Shown one piece after another: positions 42,887 through 55,713 of a stretch of 64,000 bases of DNA. The notes beneath the pieces were generated by a model. That model saw nothing but the letters and a program-made list of their open reading frames with translations, was not told where the DNA came from and searched no databases. The stretch lies in contig NZ_AWQS01000002.1 in the NCBI RefSeq assembly GCF_000576575.1, forward strand, positions 1-64,000, in the 5' to 3' direction. This DNA is from Intrasporangium chromatireducens Q5-1. GTDB taxonomy: Bacteria; Actinomycetota; Actinomycetes; Actinomycetales; Dermatophilaceae. The translations under genes were made by a program, and so were the position numbers. Positions within the stretch are counted from its first letter, which is position 1, and every line of letters begins with the position of its first letter.

Positions 42887-44221
42887 TCAGCGCTGGTTGG
42901 CCGAGGCCTTGGACCCGGTCTGCCGGGCCTTGCCCTCACCCTGCTGCGGTTGCTCCTGCTGACCACCCTTGCCGGCTGGCTTCTCCTCCGCGGCGGCCGG
43001 ACCAGGACGCTGCTGGCCGGCGGGCTGGGCGCCTCCGCCGTCCTGACCGGCGCGCTGCGGCCGAGAGCCCTGGGGCGTAGAGCCCTGCTGTCCGGAGCCC
43101 TGCTGTCCGGAGCCCTGCTGTCCGGAAGCCTGCTGGCCAGGACCAGGCTGGCCCGAGCCCTGCGGACGAGCGCCCTCCTGCCCGGAGGCCGGCTGAGCTG
43201 CACCCGGCCGGCCACCCTGCGGTGCCTGCCGCGCCTGCTGGCCCTGTGCCGGTCCGCCGGGCGCGCCCGACCCCCGCTGCTGCTGGGGCGCCGGCGTCTC
43301 CTCCGGGACGATGCCCGTGCCGAGCGAGGCGAGCATCTGTCGCAGGTTGGTCAGCTGGGCACTGATGCTGTCGCGCTGGGCCATCGCGGCCGCGAGCTCG
43401 CGGTCGCTCTCCTCACGCACCCGGGAGGCGTGGTCGCGGGCCTCGGAGACGATCTCGTCGGCCTCGGCCTGGGCCTTCTCGAGCAGCGCCTTCGCCCGGT
43501 GGCGGGCCTCGGTCGTCTCGTGCTCCGAGCGGGCCGCGAGCTGCTTGGCGCGCTCGGCGATCTCGATGAGGGCCGCCTCCTCGGTCTCCCGGCGAGCGGC
43601 GAACTCCTGCGCCGCGCGCTCACGACGCTCGGCCAGGCTCGTCTCGAGCTCCGCCGTCGCCGACGACGCCTTGGCCCGCTGGGCCTCGTACTCTGCCGCC
43701 GCCTCCTGGCGGTGGGCCGCGGCGACGCCCTGTGCCTCGACGACGACCTGCTGGGCCTCACGCTGGGCCTGGGCGATGATCCGGGCCGCGTCCTCGTCCG
43801 CCCGGGCGCGAGCCTCAGCCGCATAGGCGGTCGTCGAGGCCTTCAGCTCGGTCGCGGCCTTCGTCGCCCGCTCCCGCAGGGCGTCGGCGTCCGCCTGGGC
43901 CTTGCTGCGCAGCTCGGCCGCCTCGGTCTCGGCGAGGGCCAGCATCTTGCCGATGCGCTCACCGAAGTCGGTGTAGCTGGGTGCCGCAGAGGCCACGGAC
44001 GCGGAGCGCTTGAGCTCGACCATGGTGCGGGCCTGCTGCGACAGCTGGGTGCGTAGGTCGGCGAGGGCGGCGTTGAGGCGGGTCAGCTCGACGCTGCGCT
44101 CCGATGCGTCCTTCTTCGCCGCGGTGAGGGTGCGGTTCTGCGCCTCGATGAACTCGTCCACCTCCGCGGGCTCGTATCCGCGCCGGGACAACTTGAAGCT
44201 GGGTCTGTCGATCATGGCCAT
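42887..44221 (-). CDS. DivIVA-domain coiled-coil protein with Gln/Gly-rich tail
   Basis: A 444-residue protein in three parts. Residues 1-60 resemble the DivIVA/Wag31 N-terminal membrane-curvature domain (SFKLSRRGYEPAEVDEFIEAQNR). A long Ala/Glu/Arg-rich coiled coil runs to about residue 290. A disordered tail to the C-terminus is rich in Gly, Gln, Pro and Ser, with tandem SGQQG units. It probably acts as a polar or cell-wall-associated scaffold; it is not the main wag31, which normally sits by ftsZ. Starts at 44221 (MAM) and 44215 (MID) are both possible. Confidence 0.8.
   Translation of the reverse strand: MAMIDRPSFKLSRRGYEPAEVDEFIEAQNRTLTAAKKDASERSVELTRLNAALADLRTQLSQQARTMVELKRSASVASAAPSYTDFGERIGKMLALAETEAAELRSKAQADADALRERATKAATELKASTTAYAAEARARADEDAARIIAQAQREAQQVVVEAQGVAAAHRQEAAAEYEAQRAKASSATAELETSLAERRERAAQEFAARRETEEAALIEIAERAKQLAARSEHETTEARHRAKALLEKAQAEADEIVSEARDHASRVREESDRELAAAMAQRDSISAQLTNLRQMLASLGTGIVPEETPAPQQQRGSGAPGGPAQGQQARQAPQGGRPGAAQPASGQEGARPQGSGQPGPGQQASGQQGSGQQGSGQQGSTPQGSRPQRAGQDGGGAQPAGQQRPGPAAAEEKPAGKGGQQEQPQQGEGKARQTGSKASANQR
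43081..43140 (-). repeat. 15-bp tandem repeat in the DivIVA-like gene
   Basis: The unit AGCCCTGCTGTCCGG (plus strand) occurs about three times plus a degenerate fourth, encoding repeats of Ser-Gly-Gln-Gln-Gly. Such arrays can change copy number by slippage in frame. Confidence 0.85.
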
Positions 44222-44382: not shown

Positions 44383-45342
44383 TCAGTGCAGGCGCACGCG
44401 GGGGTCGAGAACGGCGTAGAACGCGTCGACGACGATGTTTGCGACGACGACGGCCGCCGAGGCGAACAGGACGATCCCGATGATGACCGGAAGGTCCTGC
44501 TGGTTGATCGCGTCGATCGCCGTCTTGCCCAGCCCGGGCAGGCTGAAGACGGTCTCCGTCACGACGACACCGCCGAGGAGCGAGCCGACGTCGATGCCGA
44601 ACTGGGTCACGATCGGCGTCAGGGCAGCCCGCAGGGCGTGGCGCAGCACGACCCGCCGCTCACCGACGCCCTTGGAGCGGGCGGTGCGGACGTAGTCCTC
44701 CCCGAGGACGTCGAGCATCGACGCCCGGGTGAGGCGCGTGTAGGTCGCGGCCGAGACGAGGGCGAGGGTGAACCACGGCAGGACCATGTGGATGAACCAG
44801 TCGTAGAGCCCACCGGTGAACGGCGCGTAGCCACCCGCGGGGAACACCGCCGATCCCGCCAGCGTCAGCCGGAAGTAGAGGAAGTAGAGCAGCAGCAGCC
44901 CGAGCAGGAACGTCGGCATCGAGTAGAAGAACAGCGCGAAGGCGGTCATCCCCCGGTCGACGAAGGAGCGGGGCCGGATCGCCGAGACGACGCCGTTGAA
45001 GACACCGAGCACGAGCCAGATGATCGCCCCGGGGATCACGACCGACAGGGTGATCGGCAGCGCGCCCGCGATCAGGTCCGTGACCGGCACCCCGTGGTAG
45101 TAGTCGAAGCCGAGGTCGCCCCGCACGGCCTTGCCGACGAAGTCGAGGTACTGCTTCCACACCGGCTGGTCGAGACCCAGCCGGTGCGAGATGAGCGCGA
45201 CGACGTCGGGCGTGGCCTGGCGCCCGGCGAGGGTGCGGGCCACGTTGTTGGGGGCGATGAAGAACAGGGCGAACACCGCGACGGTGATCAGCCACATGAC
45301 GAGGACACCGAGCGCGAGCCGGCGCACGAGGAATCGCAGCAT
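44383..45342 (-). CDS. peptide-type ABC transporter permease (DppB-like)
   Basis: A 319-residue inner-membrane permease of the DppB/OppB type. It begins MLRFLVRRLALGVLVMWLITVAVFALF, has six helices and carries the EAA-like loop VRTARSKGVGERRVVLRHALRAAL that contacts the ATPases. Followed by LPVIIGIVLFASAAVVVANIVVDAFYAVLDPR, typical of the family. It is the last gene of the five-gene importer operon. Substrate is likely a peptide but nickel or sugars are possible for this fold. Confidence 0.9.
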   Translation of the reverse strand: MLRFLVRRLALGVLVMWLITVAVFALFFIAPNNVARTLAGRQATPDVVALISHRLGLDQPVWKQYLDFVGKAVRGDLGFDYYHGVPVTDLIAGALPITLSVVIPGAIIWLVLGVFNGVVSAIRPRSFVDRGMTAFALFFYSMPTFLLGLLLLYFLYFRLTLAGSAVFPAGGYAPFTGGLYDWFIHMVLPWFTLALVSAATYTRLTRASMLDVLGEDYVRTARSKGVGERRVVLRHALRAALTPIVTQFGIDVGSLLGGVVVTETVFSLPGLGKTAIDAINQQDLPVIIGIVLFASAAVVVANIVVDAFYAVLDPRVRLH

Positions 45343-45352
45343 GGTCCAGCTC

Positions 45353-46345
45353 CTATCCGGCGAACATTCGGTCGCTGCGCGGGTCGAACGCGTCCCGCAC
45401 GCCGTCACCGAAGAGGTTGAAGGCCAAGGTCGTGATGAGCAGCGCTGCGCCGGGGAACACGACGAACCACCACGCGACGGTGTAGTAGTTCTGCGACTCG
45501 CTGATCATCCCGCCCCAGTCGGCAGTGGGCGGGGGCAAGCCCAGGCCGAGGAAGGACAGCGTCGCCTCGACGACGATGACCACGGGAATCAGCAGCGACG
45601 CGTAGACGATGACCGGCGCGAGCACGTTCGGCAGGATGTCGACGAACATGATCCGGGAGTTCGTCGCGCCGAGCGAGCGTGCGGCCTCGACGAACTCGCG
45701 CTCCCGGAGCGAGAGCACCTGCCCCCGCACGATCCTCGCGACGGACGCCCAGCTGAAGAAGCCGATGACGAGGATGGTCACGAGCAGGCTCGGACCGGTG
45801 ATCGACACGAGCGCGACCGCGACGAGGAGGAACGGCACGGACAGGATGACGTCGACGAGGCGGGCCAGGATCGTGTCGACGATCCCGCCGAGGAAGCCCG
45901 CGGCGAGGCCGACGATGACGCCGATGACGACCGTCAGGGCCGTGGCGACCACTCCGACGAGGAGCGAGATCCGGGCACCGTAGGCGATCCGCACGAAGAT
46001 GTCGCGACCCAGGTCGTCGGTCCCGAGCCAGAAGGTGCTGTTGGGGCCGATCGGCAGGCCGTCCGGGCTGAGCCCGGCCTGGCGGTACTGCTCGTTGACC
46101 GGGTGCCCCGTGATGGTCGTCGCGAGCGGTGCGAAGACCGCCCCGAGGATGACGAGCACGATGACCCCGAGCGAGATCATCGCGACCTTGTCCCGTCGCA
46201 GCCGTTGCCAGGCGAGCAACCAGGGGCTGCGCCCCTCGATCCGCTTCTCGGCGACCGGCTCGGTGGTCGTCGGTTGTCCCTCTCCGGTGAGGACGGACTC
46301 TGTCTCCTCCGTGCGCGGGCTCTCGCCGGGCATCGAGTTGGCCAT
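45353..46345 (-). CDS. peptide-type ABC transporter permease (DppC-like)
   Basis: A 330-residue DppC/OppC-type permease. An Asp/Glu/Thr-rich N-terminal tail precedes WQRLRRDKVAMISLGVIVLVILGAVF. FWLGTDDLGRDIFVRIAYGARISL and the EAA loop EFVEAARSLGATNSRIMFVDILPN are diagnostic, as is the C-terminal SFLGLGLPPPTADWGGMI. It forms the heterodimeric channel with the downstream permease, whose gene begins 10 bp further on. Confidence 0.91.
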   Translation of the reverse strand: MANSMPGESPRTEETESVLTGEGQPTTTEPVAEKRIEGRSPWLLAWQRLRRDKVAMISLGVIVLVILGAVFAPLATTITGHPVNEQYRQAGLSPDGLPIGPNSTFWLGTDDLGRDIFVRIAYGARISLLVGVVATALTVVIGVIVGLAAGFLGGIVDTILARLVDVILSVPFLLVAVALVSITGPSLLVTILVIGFFSWASVARIVRGQVLSLREREFVEAARSLGATNSRIMFVDILPNVLAPVIVYASLLIPVVIVVEATLSFLGLGLPPPTADWGGMISESQNYYTVAWWFVVFPGAALLITTLAFNLFGDGVRDAFDPRSDRMFAG

Positions 46346-46350
46346 CGTCG

Positions 46351-47439
46351 TCAGCTCCTCTCGGTGAGCGGCGCGCCGCCCTCGGTCGTGTCGTCGGCGA
46401 CGATCTCGGAGTCCTCGATGTGGGGGACCGCGAGCGCGAGGTCCTCGCCGACCGCGAGCGGGTGCAGGCAGGCGGTGCGGTGGGTGGGCGGGTCGTCGAA
46501 GACCGGTTCCAGCGGCGGATCCGTCACCACACAGTCATGCTGCGCCTTCGGGCACCGGGTATGGAAGCGGCAGCCGGTCGGTGGGTTCGTCGGGGACGGC
46601 AGGTCGCCGACGAGGACGATCCGCTCCCGGCTGTCCGCGACGTCCGGGTCGGGTAGTGGCAGCGCCGACAGCAGCGCCCGGCTGTAGGGGTGCCGGGTCG
46701 TCCCGAAGAGGTCGTCAGCGGTCGACACCTCGGCGATCTTGCCGAGGTACATGACGGCGATCCGGTCACTCACGTGCCGCACCACGGACAGGTCGTGTGA
46801 GATGAAGACGTAGGTCAGCCCGAAGTCGTCCTGCAGGTCGATGAGCAGGTTGATGATCTGGGCCTGGATGGAGACGTCGAGGGCCGACACGGGCTCGTCA
46901 CAGATGACGAGCTTGGGGCGGAGCGCGAGCGCCCGGGCGACGCCGATGCGCTGGCGCTGGCCACCCGAGAACTCCGCCGGGAAGCGGTTGTAGTGCTCAG
47001 GGTTGAGCCCGACCGTCTCCATCAGGTCCTGGACCTTGGTCTTGATCTCCTTGCGCGAGCCGATGCCGTGGATCGTGAAGGGGTCACCGATGATCGACCC
47101 GACGCGTCGGCGCGGGTTCAGCGACCCGTACGGGTCCTGGAAGATCATCTGGATGTCCCGCCGGACCGGGCGCAGGTCCCCGCGGGAGAGGTTGCTGATG
47201 TCCTTCCCCTGAAACCACACCTTGCCCGAGGTCAGGGGATAGAGGCGGGCGATGCAGCGGGCCAGCGTCGACTTGCCACAGCCGGTCTCACCGACGAGGC
47301 CGACCGTCTCGCCGGGCATGACCTCCAGACTGACGCCGTCGACCGCGTGGACGACGGCGTGCTCTCGGTCGAACAGGCTCGAGGAGCGGACTGGAAACGT
47401 CTTGACGACGTCCTCGACGCGCAGGAGCGGGTCGCTCAT
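46351..47439 (-). CDS. peptide-type ABC transporter ATP-binding protein (DppF-like)
   Basis: A 362-residue ATPase. Walker [10 protein letters not shown], signature [15 protein letters not shown], Walker [13 protein letters not shown] and the C-terminal oligopeptide-transporter region [17 protein letters not shown]. The cysteines there belong to the extra C-terminal module of Dpp/Opp ATPases. The start ATG overlaps the DppD-like stop (ATGA), rejecting the ATG at 47448. Confidence 0.92.
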
Positions 47440-48485
47440 GCGGACCACTCCTCCGGCTCGGCGGCCTGGGCCTGGGCATCGGTCTCGTCCGCGTGCTCAC
47501 GGTCGAGGTGGCGCATCTCCCGGTTGCTCGAGAGCCAGCACGAGGACAGGTGGGTCGGGTCGTCGTAGACCTCCGCCAGAGGGGGGGTCTCCTTCCAACA
47601 GAGGTCGAACGCGTAGCGACAGCGCGGCGCGAACGGACACCCGGCGGGCAACGAGATGAGAGATGGCGGTGCACCCGCGATCGGGGTCAGCCGCGCACCG
47701 ATGTCGCCCTGGGCCGGCAGGGAGGCGAGCAGGCCCTCGGTGTAGGGGTGGTGGTGGTCGTAGAAGATGGTGCGCCGGGCGCCCTTCTCCATGACCGCCC
47801 CGGCGTACATGACGACCACCTCGTCGGACATCTCGGCGACGACGCCGAGGTCGTGGGTGATCAGGATGATGGCGGTGCCGTACTGCTCCTGCAGGTTGCG
47901 CATCACCTCGAGCACCTGCGCCTGCACCGTGACGTCGAGCGCCGTCGTGGGCTCGTCGGCGATGAGCAGGTCGGGGTCGAGGGCCATCGCCATGGCGATC
48001 ATGACGCGTTGGCGCATGCCGCCGGAGAACTGGTGTGGGTAGTCGTCGATCCGGCTCTCGGCCCGTGGGATGCCCACGAGCGAGAGCAGGTGGGCCGCGC
48101 GCTGCCGCGCGGCCGCCGTGGAGATCCGGTGGTCGTGCGCCCTGATCATCTCGACGATCTGCCACCCGACCTTGTAGTACGGGTGCAGGCTCGAGAGCGG
48201 ATCCTGGAAGATCATCCCGATCCGGTTGCCCCGGATCTTCTGGAGCACCTTCGTCGAGGCCCCGATGAGCTCGGTGTCGTCGAACCGGGCGGAGCCAGAG
48301 ATCCGGGCGCCCCGGGTCAGGCCGGTGATCGTCTGCGTCGCGACGCTCTTGCCGGAGCCGGACTCTCCGACGATGGCGAGCGTGGTGCCACGCTCGACAT
48401 CGAAGGAGAGTCCGCGCACGGCCTCGACGACTCCGTCCGGGGTGTTGAAGGCGACCCGCAGGTCTCGCACCTCAAGTAGAGCCAT
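47436..48485 (-). CDS. peptide-type ABC transporter ATP-binding protein (DppD-like)
   Basis: A 349-residue ATPase. Walker [10 protein letters not shown], signature [15 protein letters not shown], Walker [13 protein letters not shown] and the H-loop [13 protein letters not shown]. The C-terminal [14 protein letters not shown] motif is again typical of peptide importers. It pairs with the DppF-like subunit for asymmetric ATP hydrolysis. It begins 21 bp after the binding-protein gene. Confidence 0.92.
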
Positions 48486-48506: not shown

Positions 48507-50324
48507 TCAGCCGCCCTGCTTGTCCGCGGACAGCCAGACGTTCGTCGGGTCGAAGTTCTGCATGGCCGGGACATAGACCGCGCCGTGCACCTGGGCCGCG
48601 TGGTAGTTGGCCTGCTTCGGGTTGGTGATCGGGAAGAACGGAGCGTCGGCCATGACCTGCTTGTCGGCCGCTGCCCACAGGGTGCGGGCCTCGTCCTCGG
48701 TCTTGGCGTTGGCGCCCTTCTTGATCGCGTCGTTCGTCGTCGGGTTGTCGTAGAGCCCGAAGTTGCTGCCGACCGGCGGGAACGATGCCTTGCCCGAGAA
48801 CAGCGGGTTGAAGAACGACAGCGCCGCGTTGCCGTACCAGTCAGCGCCCCAGCCGGCGACCGCGAGGTCCCAGACGCCGCGCTTGGCGACGGACGGCACC
48901 TGAAGGTACTTCGTGTAGAAGTCGGCGTTCGGTGAGGGCACGCCCTCGACCTTGAAGCCGGCCTTGGACAGGTCCTGCTGCGCGGTCTGGAACGTCTTGC
49001 TGCTGCCCTCGGACGAGTTGCGGTAGAGCATCTTGACCGTCAGCCCGTTCGGGAAACCGGCGTCGGCGAGCATCTGCTTCGCCTTCGCGGCGTCGTACGG
49101 GTAGAGGTCGAAGTTCTGCTCACCACCGACGATGTTCGACGGCAGGACGTGGCTGAGCGGGTCGTTCAGCTTCGGGCCGCCCAGCACCTGGATGATGTTG
49201 TTGCGGTTGAGCGCGTAGGACAGGGCCTGACGCACCTTGACGTTGCCCATCGCGCCGTTGTTGTTCGGCGACGCCGTGTTGAACACGATGTACGGGTTGC
49301 TCGACGCCGAGGGACCGATGTTGAGGTTGGGGTCCTTCTTGGCGATGAGGGCGGGCAGCTGCGACGGCGGCGGGAAGTTGTCGAACTCCATGTCCGCACT
49401 CGCGCTACCGGTCTGCAGCTGCTGCTGCGTCGAGTCCTGCGTGACCGTCTCGTTGATGACGATCTTGTCGACGTAGGCCTTGTGGACGGGGTCGCTGGCC
49501 GCGTCCCAGGCCGGGTTGCGCGAGAAGGTGATGTTCTTCGTCGGGCTGTAGCTGTCGATCTTGTACGGTCCGTCCGAGATGGTGTGCTGGCCGAGCTCTG
49601 GGCTGGCCGGGAGGTACTGGTCGTACTCCTTCGGCGCAGCGGAGAAGGCCGGCAGCGTCAGCATGTCGGTGAAGTACGCCGCTGGGTGAGTCAGCGTGAA
49701 CTCGAGCGTGAGGTCGTCCTTGGCCACCACGCCGGGCAGGTCCGTCTTGTTGATGTAGTCGGCCACGCCCTTGGCCGACTTGTCCGAGATCTTGGCGAAG
49801 CCGTCACAGAACTGGGTCATGCCCTTGATGAGGTCCTCGTAGTCCGGGAGGCCACCGAAGGGCTGGACCGGGTTGCAGGTCCGCTTGACGCCGCGGACGA
49901 AGTCCGCCGCTGTGACCTGGCGAGCCGGCTGGGTGTCCCACTTGACGCCGTTGCGGATCTTGATCGTGTAGGTCAGGCCGTCGGCGCTGATCCCGTTGCC
50001 CTGCGTCGGCAGCGACTCCGCGATGTCGGGCACCGACTTGGTCGTCTGACCCTCGACTGCCGGGTAGGTGAACAGCTGCCGGCTCCAGATCCTCGCGGCG
50101 AGGTAGCCGATGCTGTAGTACGTGATGTTCGGGTCCATGTAGTCGACGTCGCCCGAACCCAGCATGTTCAGCGTGCCGCCCTTGACGGCCTGGGCGGAGC
50201 CCCCGCCGCCGCCGGTCGACCCGCCGCTCGGAGTGCTGGGCGACCCGCCGCACGCCGCCAGGCCGACCAGGCTCAGCGTCGAGGCAGCAGCGACGAGCGC
50301 GACCCGTCTTGTCCTGCTTGTCAT
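48507..50324 (-). CDS. solute-binding lipoprotein of the ABC importer (family 5)
   Basis: A 605-residue lipid-anchored binding protein. The signal MTSRTRRVALVAAASTLSLVGLAAC is cut before Cys25, then a Gly/Ser-rich linker leads to an SBP_bac_5 domain (LTYTIKIRNGVKWDTQPARQVTAADFVRGVKRTC...). Extra cysteines in the mature region could form a disulphide. The first gene of the operon, it starts after AAGGAG. It delivers oligopeptides or similar solutes to the membrane channel. Divergent from the two-component regulator, with shared upstream sequence. Confidence 0.92.
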   Translation of the reverse strand: MTSRTRRVALVAAASTLSLVGLAACGGSPSTPSGGSTGGGGGSAQAVKGGTLNMLGSGDVDYMDPNITYYSIGYLAARIWSRQLFTYPAVEGQTTKSVPDIAESLPTQGNGISADGLTYTIKIRNGVKWDTQPARQVTAADFVRGVKRTCNPVQPFGGLPDYEDLIKGMTQFCDGFAKISDKSAKGVADYINKTDLPGVVAKDDLTLEFTLTHPAAYFTDMLTLPAFSAAPKEYDQYLPASPELGQHTISDGPYKIDSYSPTKNITFSRNPAWDAASDPVHKAYVDKIVINETVTQDSTQQQLQTGSASADMEFDNFPPPSQLPALIAKKDPNLNIGPSASSNPYIVFNTASPNNNGAMGNVKVRQALSYALNRNNIIQVLGGPKLNDPLSHVLPSNIVGGEQNFDLYPYDAAKAKQMLADAGFPNGLTVKMLYRNSSEGSSKTFQTAQQDLSKAGFKVEGVPSPNADFYTKYLQVPSVAKRGVWDLAVAGWGADWYGNAALSFFNPLFSGKASFPPVGSNFGLYDNPTTNDAIKKGANAKTEDEARTLWAAADKQVMADAPFFPITNPKQANYHAAQVHGAVYVPAMQNFDPTNVWLSADKQGG

Positions 50325-50439
50325 GTCACTCTCCTTCGAGACCATGTCTCGTGGGACTCCGGACCGGGATCGGCCGGCCTCGGTCTTGCGGCTGTCACGC
50401 TAGGCACCCGGATGCGCCTCGGGCCGGGACTGGCGGGAG

Positions 50440-50472
50440 GTGTCACGGGAGTGTCATGTGAGCGTCATGTAC
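50440..50472 (+). promoter_or_regulatory. three 11-bp direct repeats, candidate OmpR-type operator
   Basis: GTGTCACGGGA, GTGTCATGTGA and GCGTCATGTAC lie head-to-tail without gaps (consensus GYGTCAYG). The 11-bp period suits tandem binding by an OmpR/PhoB-family regulator, and such a regulator is encoded 76 bp downstream. The site lies in the 224-bp divergent gap shared with the ABC importer operon. Confidence 0.6.
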
Positions 50473-50548
50473 CACGCGTGTGTGTGACATTTTCATGACG
50501 GCGGTGAGTCCAGCCGGCCCCCAGCGCGCGTCCAGCAAAGAGAGCAGA

Positions 50549-51241
50549 ATGTGGGGTGTGACGCGCCAGCTGCTTCTCGTCGAGGACGACTCCAGGGTGC
50601 GTCGCGTGCTGCGCATGGCCCTCGAGGACGAGGGGTTCCACGTCACCGAGGCTGCGGACGGCTCCCAGTGCCTGTCGGCGATGCGGGAGCACTCCCCGGA
50701 CGTCGTGCTCCTCGACGTCATGCTGCCGGACCGCGATGGCTTCTCGGTGTGCCGTGAGATCCGCAAGGACAGTGACGTCCCCGTCATCATGGTCACGGCC
50801 CGCACCGACAGCCACGACGTCGTCGCGGGCCTCGAGGCCGGGGCGGACGACTACGTCACGAAGCCGCTCGTCTCCAAGGAGCTGGCGGCACGGATCCGGG
50901 CCCTGCTGCGCCGGGCCGAGCCTTCGCTGGAGCAGCATCGCAAGCGGCTCGGCTTCGGCGACCTCAGCATCGGCCTCGACGACGGTGTGGTGCTGCGCGG
51001 CGACGAGGAGCTGGCCCTGACCCGCACCGAGTTCCGGCTCCTCGCCGAGCTGGCCATGGCGGACGGCGGGATCTGCAGCCGGGAGCACCTGCTCGACCGG
51101 GTCTGGGGCTACGGCTACTTCGGCGACAGCCGCATCGTCGACGTCCACATCCGGCGCCTGCGGGTCAAGGTCGAACGCGACCCTGCCAACCCGCGCCACG
51201 TCGTCACGGCCAGGGGACTCGGCTACCGGCTGGTGGGGTAG
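50549..51241 (+). CDS. OmpR/PhoB-family response regulator
   Basis: A 230-residue regulator. The receiver domain has acidic LVEDDSRVRR, the phospho-acceptor Asp56 in VVLLDVMLPD, Thr in IMVTART and Lys in DYVTKPL. The C-terminal winged helix ends IVDVHIRRLRVKVERDPANPRHVVTARGLGYRLVG. The start is taken as ATG 50549 (MWGVTRQLL); GTG 50558 is an alternative, and the longer frame from 50480 lacks family similarity. The histidine kinase follows immediately. Confidence 0.92.
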   Translation: MWGVTRQLLLVEDDSRVRRVLRMALEDEGFHVTEAADGSQCLSAMREHSPDVVLLDVMLPDRDGFSVCREIRKDSDVPVIMVTARTDSHDVVAGLEAGADDYVTKPLVSKELAARIRALLRRAEPSLEQHRKRLGFGDLSIGLDDGVVLRGDEELALTRTEFRLLAELAMADGGICSREHLLDRVWGYGYFGDSRIVDVHIRRLRVKVERDPANPRHVVTARGLGYRLVG

Positions 51242-52627
51242 GTGCGCCGGCGCGAGGCTCGACTTCGGACGCCGAGTGGCCGCCGCCTCGGCCTGCGCGA
51301 TCGGGTCTCCATCGCGTTCGGCCTGCTCGCCCTCGCCCTGTCGGCGCTGCTGTCCCTCATCGCCTGGGGCGTCGTGTCGCAGTACCTGGTGGGGGAGCGC
51401 CAGTCGGCGGCACTGGCCCAGGCGGACCTGCACCGCTCGCTGCTGGCGACGGGCATCGTGCAGCGCAAGGAGTCGGTCGCCCTCCTGCTGAACGGCCTGC
51501 CGACGAACGGGGCGACCGGCGCGACGGCGGTCGTGGGCGGTCGCTGGTATGCGACGTCGCCCCGGGTGCAGCCGGCGACCCTGCCGAACGAGCTGATCGC
51601 CGAGGCGATCGCGGGGGAGACTGCGACGCAGCGGATCCGGCTCGAGGGCGGGCTCTACCTCGCCGTCGGCATCCCGCTGGCCCAGAGCGACGACGCCTTC
51701 TTCGAGGTCTTCCCCATGGACGAGACCGAGGAGACGCTGCGCACCCTGTCGTGGGTCCTGAGCGGGACCGCGGCCGCCACGACCGTCCTCGGCGCCGCGT
51801 TCGGTCGGGTGGCGAGCGGCATCTCGCTCCGGCCGCTCAATGAGCTGAACGCGGCGGCCGCGGCGGTGGCCGGCGGTCAGCTCGACGCGCGGCTGCCCAC
51901 GGGGGACGACCCCGACCTCACGCCCCTTGCCCTCTCCTTCAACCGGACCGTCGGCGAGCTGCAGCACCGCGTCATGGCCGATGCACGGTTCGCCGTCGAC
52001 GTCGGTCACGAGCTGCGCACGCCGCTCACGACGATGCTCAACTCGATGCAGGTCATCAAGAACCGCGAGGACCGGCTCCCGCCGGAGCTGCGGGAGCCGC
52101 TCGAGCTGCTCGAGAGCGACCTGGAACGCTTCCGCGCGCTCGTCGTGGACCTGCTCGAGATCTCGCGCCACGACGCCGGGGAGCAGCTGGTCCTCGCGCC
52201 GGCGGCGATCGGCCGGCTCGTGCGCCTCGCCGCGGACACCGCCGCCGGCCGCCCGGTCACGACGATCGACGAGAGCGCCCGGCACGTGACGCTCTCGGTC
52301 GACAAGCGGCGGCTCGAGCGGGCCATCGTCAACCTCGTCAACAACGCGGAGACCCATGGGGGAGGCTGCACCGGCGTCACGGTGCGGATGGAGGACCACC
52401 ACGTCGCCATCGAGGTCGACGACAAGGGGCCGGGCGTGCCGGCCGAACGACGCGCCCTCGTGTTCGACCGCTTCGCCCGAGGGAGCGGCACGACGAGCGG
52501 CGGCGTCGGTCTCGGGCTCGCCATCGCCCGCCGGCACATCGCCGCGCACGGCGGCACGGTCCGCGCCGAGGAGTGCCCGGGAGGAGGTGCCCGCTTTGTC
52601 ATCAGCCTGCCCCTCGCGCGGCCCTGA
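51242..52627 (+). CDS. two-component sensor histidine kinase
   Basis: A 461-residue kinase. A cytoplasmic basic N-terminus is followed by a membrane helix (FGLLALALSALLSLIAWGVV), an extracytoplasmic sensor of about 110 residues, a second helix (LSGTAAATTVLGAAF), HAMP, then the H-box FAVDVGHELRTPLTTM with His256. N-box (IVNLVNNAETHGGG), D-box and G-box (GVGLGLAIARRH) are intact. It resembles MtrB- or CseC-type actinobacterial kinases. The GTG start abuts the regulator's TAG stop. The signal sensed is unknown. Confidence 0.92.
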   Translation: MRRREARLRTPSGRRLGLRDRVSIAFGLLALALSALLSLIAWGVVSQYLVGERQSAALAQADLHRSLLATGIVQRKESVALLLNGLPTNGATGATAVVGGRWYATSPRVQPATLPNELIAEAIAGETATQRIRLEGGLYLAVGIPLAQSDDAFFEVFPMDETEETLRTLSWVLSGTAAATTVLGAAFGRVASGISLRPLNELNAAAAAVAGGQLDARLPTGDDPDLTPLALSFNRTVGELQHRVMADARFAVDVGHELRTPLTTMLNSMQVIKNREDRLPPELREPLELLESDLERFRALVVDLLEISRHDAGEQLVLAPAAIGRLVRLAADTAAGRPVTTIDESARHVTLSVDKRRLERAIVNLVNNAETHGGGCTGVTVRMEDHHVAIEVDDKGPGVPAERRALVFDRFARGSGTTSGGVGLGLAIARRHIAAHGGTVRAEECPGGGARFVISLPLARP

Positions 52628-53210
52628 GGACCGGCGCCCCTCGCGCGCGACGCGTCGGCTGCTGCCGTATGCCGTGTGCCTCCTCCTGCTCGCCGGCTGC
52701 GGGATCGGCCCGCAGACCGATCCCGTCGTCGTCAGCATCCCGCCGCAGACCGCCATCTCGGTGCCGACGACCGTCGTGTCCGGGGTGCCGCTCAGCGTGC
52801 AGGTGTATCTCCTCGAGGGCTCGCACCTGTTCCGCGTGACCCGCACGGTGCCACCGGGGCCGGGGATGCAGCCGACCCTGTCGGCCATCTCCGCCCCGAT
52901 CTCGCCGGACGAGCGGTCACAGGGACTGCGCACTGCCCTGCCGCCGTCGGTGCGCCCACTGCGGGGGTCGATCACCGGCGGTGACATCGCGAGGATCGAG
53001 GTCCCGCCGGGGTTCGACCGGCTCCCGGTGCAGGAGCAGATCAACGCGCTCGGGCAGCTGGTCTTCACCGTCACGGCCGACACCCTCGCCACCGGCGTGC
53101 AGCTCGTCGAGGACGACAAGCCGGTCGCGGTGCCGGATGCGAGTGGGCAGCTGCAGGACCGCCCGGTGACGCGGGAGGACTACGCGGTGCTCGCGCCGCG
53201 CGCCAGCTAG
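52596..53210 (+). CDS. GerMN-domain lipoprotein
   Basis: A lipoprotein of about 204 residues whose hydrophobic signal (LLPYAVCLLLLAGC) ends at Cys35 from the proposed TTG start; GTG 52587 is an alternative. GGAGGAGG lies well placed within the end of the kinase gene, which it overlaps by 32 bp. The mature part (VPLSVQVYLLEGSHLFRVTRTVPP ... EQINALGQLVFTVTA) fits a GerMN domain like that in LpqB, a lipoprotein that modulates MtrAB. It may adjust signalling by the upstream kinase. Confidence 0.75.
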   Translation: MSSACPSRGPEDRRPSRATRRLLPYAVCLLLLAGCGIGPQTDPVVVSIPPQTAISVPTTVVSGVPLSVQVYLLEGSHLFRVTRTVPPGPGMQPTLSAISAPISPDERSQGLRTALPPSVRPLRGSITGGDIARIEVPPGFDRLPVQEQINALGQLVFTVTADTLATGVQLVEDDKPVAVPDASGQLQDRPVTREDYAVLAPRAS

Positions 53211-54318: not shown

Positions 54319-55713
54319 ATGGACCGGCGGATCTTCGGGATCGAGAACGAGTACGGCGTCACGTGCACGACGCGCGGTCAGCGCCGGCTCACGCCCGACG
54401 AGGTGGCCCGCTACCTCTTCCGCAAGGTGGTCGCCTGGGGGCGGTCGAGCAACGTCTTCCTCGGCAACGGCGCCCGGCTCTACCTCGACGTCGGCTCGCA
54501 TCCCGAGTACGCCACCGCGGAGTGCGACTCGGTGCGTGAGCTGGTCATTCAGGACAAGGCGGGGGAGCGGATCCTGGAGGGGCTCGTCGAGGACGCCCAG
54601 CTGCGCCTGCAGGACGACGGCGTGGAGGGCGAGATCTTCGTCTTCAAGAACAACACCGACTCGGCCGGCAACTCGTACGGCTGCCACGAGAACTACCTCT
54701 ACAGCCGGTCCGGCGACTTCCAGCGGGTGTCGGACATGTTCATCCCGTTCCTCATCAGTCGCCAGATCACGTCGGGCGCGGGCAAGGTCGTCGCGACCCC
54801 GCACGGTGCCACCTTCGCCGTGAGCCAGCGCGCCGACCACATCTGGGAGGGCGTGTCCTCCGCCACGACGCGGTCCCGGCCGATCATCAATACCCGGGAC
54901 GAGCCGCACGCCGACGCGGAGAAGTATCGGCGGCTGCACGTCATCGTCGGTGACTCGAACATGTCCGAGACGACGAGCCTGCTCAAGATGGGCTCGGCCG
55001 ATCTGGTCCTGCGGATGATCGAGGCGGGGATCGTGATGCGGGACCTCACCCTCGAGAACCCGATCCGCGCCATCCGCACCATGAGCCATGACATCACCGG
55101 CCGAGCGACCGTGCGGCTCGCGAACGGCCGGGAGATGTCCGCGCTCGACATGCAGCGCGAGTACCACGACAAGGCAGCCGACTTCGTCGACCGCGAGGGC
55201 ATCGTCTCCGACGACGTCAAGCACGTCCTCGACCTGTGGGGCCGGGCGCTCGACGCCATCGGTGCCGGCGACCTCGACGCGGTCGGCACCGAGATCGACT
55301 GGGTCATCAAGCACCAGCTCATCGAGCGCTACCGCGCCAAGCACGGGCTCGAGCTGTCCGACCCGCGGATCCTGCAGATCGACCTCGCCTACCACGACAT
55401 CAACCGCCGGCGCGGCCTGTTCAACCTGCTCCAGCGGCACGGTCGGACGGCGCGGGTGGCGAGCGACGTCGAGATCTTCGAGGCGAAGGTGCGCCCGCCC
55501 CAGACGACGCGTGCCAAGCTCCGGGGCGACTTCATCCGCGCCGCGCAGGCGCACAGCCGCGACTTCACGGTCGACTGGGTCCACCTCAAGCTCAACGACC
55601 AGGCGCAGCGCACGGTCCTCTGCAAGGACCCGTTCCGGGCGGTCGACGAGCGGGTCGAGCGCCTGATGGAGTCGATCGAGCGCTCGTCGCCGCCCCGGCA
55701 CCGGCCGCTCTGA
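54319..55713 (+). CDS. pafA: Pup-protein ligase PafA
   Basis: A 464-residue ligase that links deamidated Pup (Glu) to substrate lysines using ATP. Nucleotide-binding [15 protein letters not shown], catalytic Asp57 in [30 protein letters not shown], and [29 protein letters not shown]. It lacks the Dop-specific loop, distinguishing it from dop at 39300. It is normally next to prcA; here about 11.5 kb of other genes separate them. Confidence 0.98.

Follow-up and report, generated by a model that had tools for sequence, protein, structure and literature searches.

The locus analysed here raises the question of which regulator reads a short run of direct repeats lying between two divergent operons, and which of the operons is controlled from it. 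The window, that is, the whole stretch of DNA that was analysed, comprises 64,000 nt of Intrasporangium chromatireducens Q5-1 (GCF_000576575.1, NZ_AWQS01000002.1, positions 1-64,000, forward strand). A preliminary description had noted three contiguous 11-mers at 50440-50472, had related their 11 bp spacing to the OmpR family, to which it assigned the neighboring regulator, and had proposed that the two-component system controls both itself and the divergent peptide importer.

Gene content of the locus

The operon on the minus strand encodes a complete Opp/Dpp-type peptide ABC importer, with a family-5 binding protein, two oligo_HPY ATPases and two BPD permeases (Table 1). By sequence, the best solved relatives are a peptide-binding protein, an oligopeptide-binding protein of the clavulanate cluster and YliB. 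None of the importer proteins reaches an equivalog cut-off, so the substrate is not settled by these matches.

Table 1. Coordinates of the genes, half-sites and putative promoter elements in the window
Feature	Position	Strand	Basis and remarks
Importer permease, OppB/DppB-like	44383..45408	-	family models
Importer permease, OppC/DppC-like	45353..46345	-	family models
Importer ATPase, OppF/DppF-like	46351..47448	-	family models
Importer ATPase, OppD/DppD-like	47436..48485	-	family models
Family-5 substrate-binding lipoprotein	48507..50345	-	PF00496; start possibly 50324
Putative importer -10, TAGCGT	50397..50402	-	conserved TAGG block in orthologous gaps
Triplet of half-sites, GTCAC-n6-GTCAT-n6-GTCAT	50442..50468	+	window sequence; conserved in orthologous gaps
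Convergent half-site pair, GTCAT-n6-GTCAC	50484..50499	-	runs 50499-50484, back toward the triplet
Putative regulator-operon -10, CAGAAT	50545..50550	+	by eye; 7 bp before the GTG start
OmpR/PhoB-family response regulator	50558..51241	+	PF00072, PF00486 (each above cut-off); GTG start inferred by comparison with orthologs
Sensor histidine kinase (HAMP, HisKA, HATPase_c)	51242..52627	+	domain matches
Small lipoprotein, GerMN (Germane) domain	52620..53210	+	PF10646, 25.7 bits, cut-off 23; start codon uncertain

The assignment of the regulator to the OmpR family is borne out by its receiver and winged-helix Trans_reg_C domains. Its best NCBIfam relative is MtrA (NF040689), which it matches with 266.1 bits against a cut-off of 300; it also scores below the cut-offs of the PhoB equivalog (TIGR02154; 217.7 against 296.2 bits) and the CseB equivalog (NF041733; 250.5 against 350 bits), and no AfsQ1 model is among the NCBIfam matches listed for it. 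Judged by score, the regulator falls outside the MtrA, PhoB and CseB equivalog families. The kinase gives a similar picture, with MtrB as its best NCBIfam relative at 211 bits against a cut-off of 450. The recognition helix of the regulator, VDVHIRRLR, is identical to that of E. coli PhoB, and would be in keeping with half-sites of the form TGTCAT/C. The second-best regulator match listed in the genome of the window is 45% identical, and most genomes of the family hold an MtrA-like match of about 50-53%; in this draft of 660 contigs, the mtrA gene may be absent or split.

Two further features lie elsewhere in the window. At 43065-43195, 15/30-bp tandem repeats fall within a coding region, where they encode the glutamine/glycine-rich tail of a coiled-coil protein that we named DivIVA-like by eye. 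A gene at 54319-55713 encodes PafA, the ligase for the Pup protein (729.8 bits, which exceeds the cut-off), and the organism therefore has part of the actinobacterial Pup-proteasome pathway.

A phased array of half-sites on both strands

The three 11-mers were found exactly where they had been placed. Their plus-strand half-sites occupy 50442-46, 50453-57 and 50464-68, with a period of exactly 11 bp. The triplet had been described correctly, but the array as a whole had been under-described, since a convergent pair on the minus strand (GTCAT-GAAAAT-GTCAC, with the spacer GAAAAT) had been overlooked. This pair is conserved about as well as the triplet, and the linker from the third plus-strand half-site to it is 20 bp.

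The motif GYGTCAYG, suggested earlier as a means of defining the regulon, occurs 22 times in the window against 22.7 expected; at this chance frequency it is too weak for such a search and we rejected its use alone; what stands out is only the phased array. The window contains five exact GTCAY-n6-GTCAY pairs, against 0.59 +/- 0.75 expected, a count that none of 100 shuffles reached, and three of the five fall in the importer-regulator gap. The exact triplet has two copies in the 4.8-Mb genome, and the same pattern written backwards has none. A generic tandem-repeat scan gives the array a score of only 37-38 among 76 rows. The plus strand also has two terminator-like matches, one at 50464-50488 and one at 50473-50486, the first of which overlaps half-sites of both arrays.

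Conservation of the array and its geometry

In a survey of 186 genomes of the family, 18 had a regulator match at E <= 1e-85 and the same number had a close binding protein at E <= 1e-120; 16 genomes had both. Wherever a regulator ortholog had at least 70% identity the importer gene lay alongside it (20/20). The 20 distinct gaps with both genes come from those 16 family genomes (one of them Pedococcus bigeumensis), two Kribbella, one Mumia and one Nocardioides. Two loci were left out before the counts were made: L031, which is the same locus as the P. bigeumensis locus L045, and L223, whose gap is identical to that of L048.

Between the genome of the window and that of its congener, the half-site bases are identical at 25 of 25 positions and the other bases of the module at 15 of 33. 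Summed over the 20 gaps, the score of the module of three plus-strand and two minus-strand half-sites (3+2) is 430, compared with 295.6 +/- 5.0 in 200 shuffles (maximum 306). Because the half-site had been derived from the genome of the window and its congener, we repeated the spacing scan, without preset geometry, on the other 18 gaps. Here two plus-strand half-sites were spaced at a lag of 22 in 16/18 gaps and two minus-strand half-sites at a lag of 11 in 15/18, the average lag being seen in about 3/18; the top lags between a plus-strand and a minus-strand half-site were 31 (12/18), 20 (11/18), 53 (9/18) and 42 (9/18). These top lags are those predicted by an 11/11/20/11 layout. The lag of 11 on the plus strand is weaker (9/18), because the middle half-site often takes a GCAA-like form. 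The earlier suggestion that the spacing fits OmpR-family direct repeats thus holds, with half-sites about 11 bp apart near a target promoter and the 3+2 geometry recurring in orthologous gaps of other genera. Three gaps (L003, L005 and L032) keep the triplet with no clear convergent pair, and one of the 20 (L049) has no convincing module. In three gaps of one genus (L219, L220 and L222, from G391, G355 and G263), extra GTCAT/GTCAC half-sites occur close to the regulator start, in addition to the 3+2 layout, and the array seems to be extended there.

A conserved ACGCTAGG-like block in the gaps was read on the minus strand as the importer -10, which would place the start of importer transcription near 50390. 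The first half-site lies 40-42 bp from this putative -10 in 16 of the 20 gaps; in the two gaps from Kribbella the distance is 29 bp, shorter by about one helical turn, and in two of the 20 the block was not found. The interval between the array and the regulator start ranges from 33 to 84 bp over the gaps. A fixed distance on the importer side and a varying one on the regulator side point to tight coupling of the array to the importer promoter. On the regulator side, a GATACT-like box was seen by eye just upstream of the aligned start codon in many orthologs, which suggests that the regulator transcript may be leaderless. A promoter scan of 50300-50600 returned no sigma-70-type site, and both -10 elements are therefore placed by conservation and position, as judged by eye.

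Loci with only one of the two partners

Genomes in which importer or regulator stands without the other serve as natural controls. Drawing on searches of the family and of the class as well as on the named loci, we compared 25 distinct gaps with an adjacent regulator with nine upstream regions of related binding-protein genes that have none (three in the family and six in the class, the binding proteins of the latter being only 55-59% identical). Eight of the nine controls come from eight genomes, in which the best match to the regulator shows 59% identity; the remaining one is an additional copy in a genome (G070) that has a normal importer-regulator pair elsewhere. The mean module score is 21.1 with the regulator and 15.3 without it (p = 6e-6), and at least one 11-bp pair is present in 23/25 and 4/9 regions, respectively (p = 0.007), both p values being uncorrected for phylogeny. 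The four controls with one loose 11-bp pair are three importer genes from a different family (f32) and one gene in G204.

The reverse case is represented by two family genomes (L041 and L042) with a regulator 64-66% identical and no importer gene. No array was found upstream of these regulators, and their recognition helix is VDVHVSRLR instead of VDVH[IV]RRLR. Among 25 more distant regulators (57-66% identity) without an importer gene, the 300 bp upstream contain a pair with a score of 9 or 10 out of 10 in five cases (L051, L055, L064, L065 and L068). Four of these loci (L051, L055, L064 and L068, at 59-62% identity, from Blastococcus, Geodermatophilus and a Jiangellaceae bin) carry a GTCAY-n6-GTCAY-like pair upstream, and no target was identified among their neighboring genes.

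Occurrence of the array elsewhere in the genomes

A rigid 58-bp pattern, consisting of the outer plus-strand half-sites, a linker of 20 and both minus-strand half-sites with up to two mismatches, gave 11 rows in 26 genomes. Nine of these are in the importer gap (seven genomes), and the two elsewhere both have two mismatches. The full module, at least in the form with a linker of 20 that this pattern finds, therefore looks private to the importer-regulator promoter. A pattern built on the common ortholog form gave 27 matches in 30 genomes, of which 16 have the gene pair and 14 do not: the eight matches that have no more than one mismatch all fall in the importer-regulator gap, as do two of the 19 with two mismatches, the other 17 being elsewhere.

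Looser three-unit GTCAY arrays with at most one mismatch gave four rows in the genome of the window and seven in that of the congener, compared with none for the controls. The only other exact triplet of the genome (L044 1501-1527; G000:C68:17924-17950) lies just upstream of DUF47-like and Pit-type phosphate transporter genes, named by eye from their translation. This triplet may be a PhoP-type box.

Proposed mechanism and alternatives

The anatomy of the array, its conservation, its fixed geometry relative to the putative importer -10 and its association with the regulator gene are direct observations. From these we consider it probable that the array is the operator of the adjacent OmpR/PhoB-family regulator and serves to activate the divergent importer, and perhaps the regulator's own gene as well. 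The kinase, perhaps together with the GerMN lipoprotein, would sense an envelope or nutrient signal and phosphorylate the regulator. Once phosphorylated, this PhoB/MtrA-like regulator would bind the 11-bp-phased GTCAY half-sites head-to-tail, as phased dimers; the three plus-strand and the two minus-strand half-sites would all lie on roughly the same face of the helix. From its rigid position upstream of the -35 region, the bound regulator would activate the peptide-importer operon. As the convergent pair lies on the side of the regulator's own promoter, self-control is likely. In this scheme we infer binding, phosphorylation, the direction of control, the signal and the substrate.

The two halves of the original proposal fare differently. 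Control of the importer appears well supported by the conserved geometry, the fixed distance to the -10 and the finding that the array is weaker or missing at importer genes with no adjacent regulator. Self-control is plausible but weaker, and appears moderately supported: the convergent pair speaks for it and the varying distance to the regulator start against it.

Several observations count against the operator reading: four of the nine controls keep a loose pair, a few gaps have no clear convergent pair or no convincing module, looser GTCAY arrays occur elsewhere, and other regulators use the same type of site. A global regulator such as MtrA, PhoP, AfsQ1 or GlnR might bind the array, the neighboring two-component system not being its reader or only sharing it. 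Sites of MtrA and AfsQ1 are described as GTnAC-like repeats that share the period of 11 bp (PMC6988585, PMC13189361), MtrA of S. coelicolor is reported to activate the oligopeptide permease bldK, yet without shifting a bldKA probe (PMC5650626), the second exact triplet precedes the DUF47-Pit operon, and the f32 importer genes have a loose pair with no regulator beside them. We regard this as rather unlikely, since MtrA-like genes occur widely in the family and importer genes that lack the adjacent regulator nevertheless have a weak module or none. It is also unlikely, if slightly less so, that the regulator binds as a repressor, its occupancy shutting both the importer and its own gene until a signal lifts repression. 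Arrays between two promoters could loop or exclude polymerase, and some regulators of this class, such as PhoP, are reported both to activate and to repress (PMC6988585); on the other side, the half-sites keep a constant distance and phase ahead of the importer -35 region, and the promoter has no recognisable -35, which would be more typical of activation.

A short tandem repeat of chance or mutational origin, with no regulatory role, could account for the modest tandem-repeat score and for the frequency of the single motif. This we rejected as very improbable, given the excess of pairs over shuffles, the spacings kept across genera, and the conservation of half-sites but not of spacers.

A more elaborate arrangement is conceivable, though doubtful. 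Regulator, kinase and GerMN lipoprotein would form a private three-component system whose sole full operator in the genome is this module, near-two-fold-symmetric and with five or six half-sites. The two regulator arrays, head-to-head and kept 20-22 bp apart, would form one DNA-bound assembly that sets both promoters together, and the binding protein would possibly act as a co-sensor feeding back on the kinase. In its simpler form, the operator reading turns a repeat noticed by eye into a testable conserved operator with a predicted regulator, half-site, spacing and target, and suggests a likely job, peptide uptake, for an actinobacterial two-component system that we could not place in a named family. 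The mirrored 3+2 layout with its nearly fixed linker would also offer a clean system for studying cooperation of OmpR-family dimers across a divergent promoter.

Comparison with known systems

The control site is of a well-supported but ordinary bacterial type. Among the partial accounts that our literature search covered, none was recognised as describing this two-component system next to an importer of peptides. The pho box of E. coli PhoB is described as direct-repeat units of 11 nt with a CTGTCAT core (PMC4415409), and the system here shares with it the repeat length, the core and the identical recognition-helix stretch; it differs in a regulator that scores below the PhoB cut-off, in a peptide importer as target, in GC-rich spacers and in a second, convergent array. 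PhoP of Mycobacterium tuberculosis, which is described as binding as tandem dimers to direct repeats of 7-bp motifs with a strict 4-bp spacer (PMC4832192), is alike in its use of direct repeats, and unlike in recognition sequence and regulon.

The Streptomyces AfsQ1/Q2 system resembles the locus in gene order, with a regulator-kinase-lipoprotein operon (the AfsQ3 lipoprotein being encoded in the AfsQ1/Q2 operon; PMC9739842) and a divergent target gene. AfsQ1 is described as binding GTnAC-n6-GTnAC sites, with sigQ divergent, and reportedly has no direct control of its own operon (PMC6988585). Here the divergent gene encodes an importer rather than SigQ, and the last base is T in two of the three plus-strand half-sites. 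The MtrAB-LpqB system is alike in that MtrA and MtrB are the best NCBIfam relatives of regulator and kinase, in its GTnAC-like direct repeats and in its link to peptide uptake through bldK. It is unlike in that both proteins fall below the cut-offs (266/300 and 211/450 bits), in the helix (VDVHIRRLR here, VNVHVQRLR in MtrA) and in the presence of separate MtrA-like genes in genomes of the family. By analogy, the array may work in the way that PhoB, AfsQ1 or MtrA operators do.
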